Assembly (NCBI RefSeq): GCF_014201715.1
Contig: NZ_JACHFD010000001.1
Coordinates: forward strand, 186,001-250,000
Direction of reading: 5' to 3'
DNA: 64,000 bases
From: Haloferula luteola
Lineage (GTDB): Bacteria > Verrucomicrobiota > Verrucomicrobiia > Verrucomicrobiales > Akkermansiaceae
Under the pieces are notes generated by a model. The model was given only the letters and a program-made list of their open reading frames with translations, did no database searches and was not told the origin of the DNA. Shown piece after piece: positions 13,569-16,500 of this stretch. The position numbers and the translations under genes are program-made. Numbering within the stretch: the first letter of the stretch is position 1; each line of letters begins with the position of its first letter.

Positions 13569-16500
13569 TCACGCCCACTCTGCACACAGCAACTCCGCCT
13601 GCTTGAGCACCGTCTTGACTGCCTCCGCTTGGAGGTCCGGCGGGTAGCCATATCGGTTCAGAATCCGCTTCACGATCACCCGGATCTTCGCCCGCGCGCT
13701 CTCGCGCAGGGTCCAATCGATGGTCACGCTCTTCCGCACCATCGTGATCAGCTCGGCGGCAATCACCTTCAACTTGTCATCGCCCAGCGCCCGCACCGCG
13801 CTCTCATTCGCGGCGAGGGCGTCGTAGAAAGCCACCTCGTCGTCGGTCAGCCCCAGGTCCTCGCCGCGCTTGGTGGCGGCGTCCATCTCCTTCGCCAGCT
13901 TGATCAGCTCCTCGATCACCTCCAGCGTGGAGATTGCCCGGTTGTGGTAGGCATTGAGCGTCTTCTTCAGCTTGTCGGAGAAGAGCTGGCTCTGCACCAG
14001 GTTCCGCTTCGAGCGCACCTTGATCTCGTCCTTGAGCAGCTTCTCCAGCAACTCCGCCGCCACGTTCTTGTGCTTCAGCCCGCGAACCTCGGCGAGGAAG
14101 CCGTCGCTGAGGATGGAAATGTCCGGCTTCTGGAGGCCCGCCGCGGTGAAGACGTCGATGACCTCGCCCTCGGTGGTGATCGCCTTGCTCACCAGTTGCC
14201 GGATCGCCGCGTCGATCTGTGCCGGGCTCTTGCGGTTCTCGCCGCTCTGCTTGTTCAGCGCCGCCTGGATCGCTTGGAAAAACGATACGTCGTCGCGGAT
14301 CGCCACCGCCTCGTCGCTCGCGGCACACAGGGCGAAGGCGCGGGAAAGCTCGGTCACCACCTGCACCCAGCGCTGCTTGCCGTCCTCCTGTTCGAGGATG
14401 TGCTCCTGCCCGGCGGGGATCAGCTTCAGCCGCTCGGTCGGCGTGCCGGTCGTCCACTTGCTCCAGTCGAAGCCGTGCATCATGTCGCAGGCCACATGAT
14501 GCTTCTCCAACATCACGGCAATGGCCTGCGCGGTGTCGAAAGTCGGATCGCCCTTGCCGCCGCTCTCGGTGTAGGTCGCCAGCGCGTGCTTCAGTTGATC
14601 GGCCAGCCCGAGGTAGTCCACCACCAGTCCGCCCGGCTTGTCCTTGAACACACGGTTCACTCGCGCGATCGCCTGCATCAGATTGTGGCCGCTCATCGGC
14701 TTGTCCGCATACATCGTGTGCAGGCACGGCGCGTCGAAACCCGTCAGCCACATGTCCCGCACGATCACCAGCTTGAACGGATCCGACGAATTCTTGAAGC
14801 GGTTCGCCAGATCGCGGCGCTGCTTCTTCGTCGTCAGGTGCTTCTGCCACTCCGGCCCGTCCGCCGCGCTGCCGGTCATCACCACCTTGAGCGCATCTTC
14901 CGCCCACTCCGGTCGCAGCTGGATCAGGGCATCGTAAAGATCGACGCAAATGCGGCGGCTCATGCAGACGATCATCGCCTTGCCTTCCATCGCCTCCACC
15001 CGCTTCTCGAAATGCGCCACCAGATCAGCAGCGATGAGTCCGATCCGCTTCGGGTCGCCCACCAGCGCCTCCAGCGCGGCCCACTTGGTCTTGAGCTTTT
15101 CCTTCTTGGAAAACTCCTCGCCCTCGGTGATCTCATCGAACTCGGAATCAATCTTCGGCAGCTCGCTGGCATTGAGGGCCAGCTTGGCGATCCGGCTTTC
15201 GTAATAGATCGGCACCGTCGCCTTGTCCGCCACCGCCCGCTGGATGTCGTAGATCGAAATGTAGTCGCCGAAGACCGCCCGCGTATTCGCGTCCGTCTTC
15301 TCGACCGGCGTGCCGGTGAAGCCGATGAACGAGGCGTTCGGCAGGGCATCCCGCAGGTTGCTGGCGAAGCCGTAAGTCATCCGCCCCTCGGCGTTCACCT
15401 TGCCGCCGAAGCCGTATTGGCTGCGGTGCGCCTCGTCGGCGATGACTACAATGTTGCGACGATCCGACAGGCATTCCATGCGGTTCTCTCGCGCAACATT
15501 GCCCTCACCCCCGGCCCCTCTCCCAGAGGTAGAGGGGAGATGTTCTGCAATCTTGCGCAGCACCTGCTCAGGATTGGAAAGAACCTCGGAATTCTCGAAG
15601 CGGAGGACCGTCAGGCCTTGTGACTTCAGGTAGGCATCGCGCTGGCGGTCGAGTTTCTGGCGCTCGGGCGTGTTGTGGGATTCTCCGTCGCATTCCACGA
15701 CGAGCTTCGCCTCGTTGCAGAAGAAGTCGGTGATATATTCGCCGAATTGGTGCTGACGACGGAACTTGGCTTCCGACAATTGCCGGTCCCTCACCAGCGA
15801 CCAAAGCAACTCCTCCGCCGTCGTGGCGTCCGCCCGCATCTCACGGGCGCGTTTCACCAGTCCTGCGAAATCAAAGCCGCCGCGATAGTGTTTCCTCCCC
15901 TCGCCCTTTGGGAGAGGGGCCGGGGGTGAGGGTTCAAGCGGAGCGAACTTATGGATCGTGGTAAAAATCACCCCGCCGCTCGCCCGATTCAAAAGCTCCC
16001 GTAAGTGCCCGCGGTCCTCCGCTTGAATAGGCTTCTGTCCGAGCAAATCCTCACACCTCTGGAACTGCCCGAAAAGCTGGTCGTCCAGGTCGTTGCGGTC
16101 GGTCAGCACCACCAGCGTCGGGTTCCGCATCGCCGGATGCCGGATCACCCGCGCCGCGTAGAAGAGCATGGAGAAACTCTTGCCACTGCCCTGCGTGTGC
16201 CACACCACCCCGGCCCGACGGTCGCCCGGTCGACCGCCTTTCATCGATCCCGTCCAGTAGCATCCCACCTCATCCCCCAGGCCGGTTCTGGTGTCCGGTT
16301 CATTCATCCCGCTGGCCCGAACCGTCTCCTCCACCGCCGCGTTCACCGCGTGGAACTGGTGGTAGCCCGCCAGGATCTTGTGCACCGCGCCGTTGTCCGG
16401 GTCTTCCTCGAAAACAACAAAGTGCTGCAGCAAGTCGAGAAAGCGCCGCCGCTCGAACACCCCGCGCACCAGCACCTCCAGCTCTAAACTCAGCTTCGCT

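Follow-up and report, generated by a model that had tools for sequence, protein, structure and literature searches.

DUF559 nuclease genes between inverted BoxC/PIT/TM-type arms: a candidate family of very small mobile elements with a copy in hsdR of Haloferula luteola

The type I restriction gene hsdR of Haloferula luteola contains, in its reading frame, a nuclease domain of the DUF559 family that is bounded by inverted repeats, which raises the question whether this segment belongs to the restriction enzyme or is a mobile element residing in it. The window, the whole stretch of DNA that was analysed, comprises 64,000 nucleotides (contig NZ_JACHFD010000001.1, positions 186,001 to 250,000). 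The host gene, identified with Pfam (13569-17276, minus strand), is open over 1235 amino acids. Within it, the element of 431 bp (15502-15932, minus strand) consists of an arm, the DUF559 coding sequence and a second arm, in the frame and direction of hsdR. Arm 1 (15502-15539, plus strand; inverted repeat I1) is composed of the tail CCCTCACCCC and a hairpin, and arm 2 lies at 15895-15932 (plus strand). The arms are 38 nt each and 92% complementary, and their outer 23 bp are perfect inverted repeats, as described in the original prediction. The nuclease domain (PF04480; 15537-15854, minus strand) corresponds to HsdR residues 475-580 (E 4e-35) and is located between the two SF2 ATPase halves recognised by Pfam. 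It is the one DUF559 domain in the whole genome. No DDE or other known transposase was detected by Pfam between the arms, where DUF559 was accompanied by the related MTES_1575 model below cut-off.

Based on the Pfam assignment, an AF2 model (pLDDT 94) and fold matches, DUF559 is predicted to have a Vsr-like PD-(D/E)XK nuclease fold. The closest structures were 3hrl, a Neisseria DUF559-like structure (Z 16.4), I-Bth0305I (11.8) and Vsr (11.2), followed by TnsA (7.5) and Hjc (7.2). Distant sequence similarity to I-Bth0305I was also detected (3r3p, E 1.3e-4); in this alignment the first E of the EDxHD motif is common to both and the D and H are not, DUF559 showing E.DG..H in its place.

The arm is not restricted to the DUF559 element. 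With up to 3 mismatches allowed, the window contains 7 copies of its 23-bp core, against 0 in 100 shuffles, and the genome-wide search also gave 7 copies in 4.9 Mb, all in the restriction-modification (R-M) operon (G000:C1:201502 to 211529, covering hsdR, hsdS and hsdM), with 0 for the reversed control. Arm copies with a shorter 21-nt core, such as those at 22613 and 25601, were searched for in the window. The arm-spacer-arm copies that had been proposed elsewhere in the operon are present as mini-elements, given without strand, in hsdS (22519-22613; gene 21831-23294, minus strand, Pfam) and in hsdM (25507-25601; gene 24309-26087, minus strand, Pfam). In addition, single arms occur in hsdR (16831-16865, plus strand) and twice in hsdM (24553-24588, plus strand; 24726-24764, minus strand), and a short palindrome pair, again without strand, occurs in hsdR (16507-16562). 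Folding energies of 6 single arms of the window were modestly better than those of shuffles (z -0.8 to -3.9), so that by energy these arms do not stand out as hairpins.

A comparison with the genus-mate G277 indicated that the operon can exist without these sequences. The R-M operon is present in G277, with HsdR identities to the window protein of 95% over residues 599-1235 and 84% over residues 1-447, and the G277 genome contains no match to DUF559 or to the arm pattern. The hsdR insertion site occupies 474 nt in the window versus 30 nt in G277, a net insertion of 444 nt or 148 codons, so the predicted residence in frame held. Derived from G277, the insertion boundaries are approximate, because of divergence in the flanks and because the gapped alignment split the insert into scattered parts. 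The empty junction of G277 reads HKF-MPEKGEAMQELCERSN-IVV. It had been proposed that precise removal of 429 bp would restore a specific HsdR junction; the in-frame empty site agrees with this in part, but precise removal was not confirmed, as the net length and the junction itself differ from the proposal. Judged from the sequence, the G277 site is empty with some scar or divergence. No target-site duplication was obtained from the available junctions, as the G277 junction has diverged and no exact strain-level junction was among them. The palindromes of hsdM and hsdS and those at the two further places in hsdR are also missing from G277: the single arm in hsdR corresponds to an insert at 16820-16869, and at 24553-24588 G277 has a different sequence without an arm. 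Beside the element, at 15437-15513, CAATGTTGCG repeats, in inverted orientation, a stretch at a distance of 33 nt (I23) and is missing from the G277 junction; templated repair during insertion may have left it there.

Insert-free alleles were found more widely. The HsdR search gave matches in 72 of 288 genomes, and the comparison was made over the 30 loci listed. The element is present in two of these, those of the window and of G012, a lone arm in L241, a second HsdR of G015, and neither in the remaining 27. In the 27 element-free loci the flanks align at most 36 nt apart or overlap; among the 28 loci without the insert, the flank alignments overlap in L223 and L228, and the check for arms covered the other 26. 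An ancestral HsdR domain was thus rejected, as originally anticipated: 28 of the 30 listed loci, G277 among them, are without DUF559, so the insert was no original part of this HsdR clade. The lone arm of L241 (3489-3520) lies exactly at the DUF559 insertion site of the window. A second gene with such alleles was metG, encoding MetRS: in an alignment of 30 loci from a search of 41 genomes, the insert was present in the query genome G289 and in G341 and absent from the other 28 loci. At the metG locus L121 a lone arm is found at nearly the same point as the insert, and L133 has a palindrome elsewhere in the linker.

We examined whether arms accompany DUF559 genes in other genomes. The domains were collected from the phylum of the window (288 genomes, 68 with a PF04480 match), from the best 80 of at least 560 relatives in named genomes, from relatives of a Nitrosomonadales genome, from annotated records and from 185 gammaproteobacterial genomes (60 with a match). 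After exclusion of identical cores and of domains with less than 80 nt of flank (e.g. L083), 176 distinct full-length domains were kept. Counts refer to loci and not to events, and many of the genomes are incomplete metagenome bins. An inverted repeat that scored 15 or more, within 300 bp of the domain on either side, was taken as a strong arm pair. Such a pair was found at 111 of the 176 domains compared with 2 of 882 positions chosen at random in these loci, in agreement with the enrichment that the original prediction demanded. It is missing from the other 65, which counts against the explanation proposed below. It was found at 4 of 11 partial or weak domains, treated as a separate class (controls 0/66), and at none of 7 helicase-type DUF559 domains, whose scores were 7-11. 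DUF559 was rare in phage records (4 of 50,697) and plasmid records (46 of 72,556, including some chromosome-sized 'plasmids'), each searched with one query, and no empty site was found at the one plasmid or phage locus that was followed.

The arm sequences differ by lineage, and arm similarity is correlated with DUF559 similarity (Mantel r 0.355, p 0.001, a value that includes shared ancestry). The design is often kept, namely a C-rich/G-rich hairpin followed by a second G-rich block, and the hairpin is purine-rich in 106 of the 111 strongly armed loci. In the 96 loci with an asymmetric second block, scored on the 3' side of the best hairpin only, the block was better described as a mirror image in 45 and as a direct repeat in 14, with 37 ties; the direct-repeat reading of the arm tails is accordingly less well supported. 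Since an intrastrand triplex needs mirror symmetry, a mirror rule fits such a structure, and the arm tails are consistent with it.

This design resembles the BoxC/PIT/TM repeats, known in E. coli since the 1990s and reported to form triplexes in vitro (PMC4666352). Their published consensus is CCCTCNCCC N3-6 GGGNGAGGG N3 GGGNGAGGG (Holder et al. 2015, PMC4666352). When the second loop was widened from N3 to N2-5, the window gave 3 matches (15898-15932, 22581-22613 and 25569-25601) and 100 shuffles gave none; the arm of the DUF559 element itself fits only with the wider loop, because its second loop is 5. By this match the window arms would belong to the BoxC/PIT/TM intrastrand-triplex class. 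According to the same paper, E. coli MG1655 has 23 BoxC/TM copies, all of them intergenic, and related motifs occur in over 260 prokaryotes; the repeats are linked to rearrangement and genome instability, and no mobility activity or gene was found around the E. coli copies (PMC4666352). No published link between DUF559 and these repeats was found in the literature searched, which lay mostly outside subscription journals.

E. coli itself has a DUF559 gene, ycjD, located between sapF and fabI, and YcjD has been placed among the PD-(D/E)XK nucleases near Vsr (PMC1189080). In strain CNREC_004-43 a complete arm abuts the 3' end of ycjD, and 12 nt of this arm are absent from K-12. At the E. coli locus L161 (3300-3560), ycjD is followed by a further, partial copy of the sequence encoding its C-terminal end and then by a degenerate arm. 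In E. coli strain 167 there is a deletion between the two copies of this sequence. Strains without ycjD were considered as empty alleles and rejected: the two examined carry an MFS or efflux gene next to sapF, and eefRABCD has been reported in place of ycjD (PMC12817139). As other genes stand there, these strains do not offer clean empty sites.

Residence inside larger genes was common. DUF559 is in frame in larger ORFs for 51 of the 176 domains, in 50 ORFs, since the hsdR of L032 has two. Pfam assigned 38 of the 50 to R-M or methyltransferase families (HsdR 17, HsdM 12, HsdS 3, other methyltransferases including MmeI-like 6). The remaining hosts are MetRS (2), HMG-CoA-lyase-like proteins (2), MetH and HrpA, C-terminal fusions on RecQ and an AIRS protein, and 4 ORFs without a recognised family (L180, L110, L160, L206). 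In several hosts the domain is C-terminal rather than internal, e.g. L055, L110, the first ORF of L205, L206 and L216. The best-80 sample of relatives was drawn with window-like queries and so leans to R-M hosts; in the gammaproteobacterial sample R-M hosts were 8 of 11. The two insertions in the L032 hsdR (3120-7313) are at different sites and 71% identical to each other.

In a FastTree phylogeny of the 176 domains, a minimum of 10 changes is required to account for R-M residence, and one clade holds 27 R-M residents among 31 rows, across phyla. Within this clade a copy most resembles others at its own site, so these insertions are old and have been passed on together with the host gene. The analysis revealed no recent movement, and this counts against mobility as we propose it below. 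The E.DG..H motif is conserved in all 51 embedded domains and in 124 of the 125 others, and dN/dS was 0.04-0.25 in the 9 of 13 embedded pairs that allowed its calculation, although dS was saturated in 8 of those 9. The R-M preference may be due to horizontal transfer of R-M operons, to their tolerance of loops or to an advantage gained from an additional nuclease.

Arm copies without the gene are dispersed in several genomes. A 21-mer of the Hymenobacter arm was found 62 and 40 times in two Hymenobacter genomes and not in 30 other genomes; 50 of the 62 and 36 of the 40 copies form inverted pairs, spaced 38-58 nt apart in 22 of 25 and 16 of 18 pairs. A TM-like arm was found in 13 of the same 32 genomes, with 23 copies in Methylococcus and 20 in the genome of L073. 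TM-type arms are also abundant where the examined DUF559 locus has another arm type (35 copies in the genome of L108, 14 in that of L070 and 13 in that of L090), so gene and arm are not matched one-to-one. In the phylum of the window, G252 contains 9 arm copies in dispersed positions and gave no match to DUF559; these copies are possibly orphan repeats, or the gene may lie on a missing contig.

Arms and gene also co-occur at the level of genomes, where strong DUF559 was defined as a best E of at most 1e-15. Among the 185 gammaproteobacterial genomes the TM consensus was found in 28 of 41 with strong DUF559 and in 20 of 144 without (OR 13.4, p 4e-11). In the phylum of the window the 23-mer-type arm was found in 8 of 23 and 4 of 265 genomes with and without strong DUF559, respectively (OR 35). 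These associations and the Mantel value are not independent counts, because the genomes are related and often incomplete. Counting against a strict coupling, 20 of the 48 TM-bearing gammaproteobacterial genomes have no strong DUF559, some being rich in copies (45, 44 and 30), and 13 of the 41 genomes with strong DUF559 have no TM.

We consider it probable that these loci represent a widespread family of very small mobile elements, in which a Vsr-like nuclease gene, DUF559, lies between inverted BoxC/PIT/TM-type arms and is predicted to mobilise them. From the anatomy, the gene-arm association, the dispersed arm-only copies, the insert-free alleles, the in-frame residence, the nuclease fold and the motif conservation we infer that DUF559 acts on the arms and causes their movement. 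The nuclease would recognise the folded arm, as hairpin or triplex, when this is exposed during replication, transcription or repair, and would nick or cut there; break repair would then copy the element to a new place and give full or arm-only copies. Arm pairs and single arms without the gene would be non-autonomous derivatives, and one enzyme would account for single arms, arm pairs and full elements. Because arms and gene can be open in one frame, in-frame copies may survive inside genes as protein loops. More tentatively, and with slightly less than even confidence, we suggest that this is an undescribed class of autonomous elements whose PD-(D/E)XK mobiliser recognises folded DNA rather than sequence, that it generated the BoxC/TM repeats of many phyla, that YcjD is a decayed member, and that the class has repeatedly specialised for in-frame residence in R-M genes.

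The main rival reading shares the cutting step with the mobile-element explanation and differs in what moves the arms. DUF559 could be a homing-endonuclease-like parasite that cuts arm-spacer-arm sites moved by other means, its gene being copied between the arms by recombination, so that the arms are the target and not the product. Among characterised enzymes its fold is indeed nearest to a homing endonuclease, arm-only copies outnumber full copies, TM-rich genomes without DUF559 exist, and the lone arms that stand at the insertion sites in hsdR and metG could be natural targets, although these lone arms fit either explanation. We nevertheless regard this reading as unlikely, since arm sequence tracks DUF559 sequence across lineages, TM is rarer in genomes without DUF559 and arms stand at sites that are empty in relatives, which requires a mover of the arms. 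Somewhat less likely still is recruitment of DUF559 as a nuclease domain that serves the host R-M enzyme, the arms being leftovers of its arrival or chance palindromes. The predominance of R-M and methyltransferase hosts, the preserved nuclease motif with low dN/dS of the embedded domains and the inheritance of same-site copies with hsdR would agree with recruitment. Against it stand the many different sites in HsdR, HsdM, HsdS and MmeI-like genes, including two in one L032 gene, the insertions in MetRS, MetH, HMG-CoA-lyase-like and HrpA genes, the arm pairs at most copies and the close homologues without DUF559.

Movement of the arms by a RAYT/IS200-type HUH transposase, with DUF559 as a bystander, appears very improbable. 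The anatomy is like that of REP pairs and the Y1 transposase (Y1_Tnp) is itself associated with TM (OR 3.9, p 0.001), but the DUF559 association is stronger and was found both in genomes with Y1_Tnp (24/33 vs 17/90) and in those without it (4/8 vs 3/54); moreover, the arms flank DUF559, whose fold is not HUH. We give almost no credence to coincidence, by which G/C-rich repeats would happen to lie near DUF559 genes. The arms are C/G-rich and simple and their hairpin z-scores are modest, yet shuffles and reversed patterns gave 0 and the positional controls 2 of 882, which rules out an origin of the arms by chance or composition.

Several known systems resemble parts of the proposed element. As in REP/RAYT systems (REPtrons), an enzyme gene lies between inverted palindromes and gene-less palindrome pairs are dispersed, and the originally suggested analogy fits this anatomy. 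However, RAYT is a Y1 HUH transposase, whereas DUF559 (PF04480) has a PD-(D/E)XK, Vsr-like fold, and the GTAG or CGTC tag at the hairpin base was absent from the window arms on inspection. Dispersal of palindromes was seen in other DUF559 genomes, whereas the 23-mer copies of the window genome are confined to its R-M operon. With the BoxC/PIT/TM repeats the arms share the consensus (second loop N2-5), the inverted pairs and the wide phyletic spread; the E. coli copies are described as always intergenic and without a nearby mobility gene (PMC4666352), whereas DUF559 arms border a nuclease gene and occur within genes in frame. I-Bth0305I and Vsr share the fold and a distant sequence similarity, but the DUF559 element lies outside introns and inteins and is framed by palindromic arms. 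Palindromes within protein-coding genes, among them genes for DNA metabolism and for tRNA synthetases, are also seen with Rickettsia palindromic elements and intragenic REPs (Di Nocera et al. 2013, PMC3733652); their in-gene copies have other sequences and are described as encoding short peptides and not an enzyme.

The BoxC/PIT/TM repeats are now linked to a specific family of enzymes, one of which is encoded in E. coli K-12 by ycjD, and this makes the question of repeat mobility directly testable in a laboratory strain. If our explanation is true, DUF559 would be a nuclease-based analogue of REP/RAYT and an enzyme-carrying partner for the palindromes that live inside proteins, and the frequent choice of R-M genes as hosts would be a puzzle.

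Further genes and repeats were noted in the operon of the window. A Thoeris-like pair (ThsB TIR and ThsA macro domain, Pfam) is located at 19130-20540, between hsdS and hsdR and within the operon span. A short ORF at 18786-19145 is a truncated hsdR duplicate that repeats the hsdR 5' end (HSDR_N, E 2.6e-7), with 89% identity to the start of G277 hsdR over 240 nt. Between hsdS and hsdM lies an Abi_2-like gene (23472-24158; 26.0 bits at a Pfam cut-off of 25.6), and directly upstream of hsdM a tandem array of 22-bp units extends from 26358 to 26616 (11.8 copies, 93% matches).
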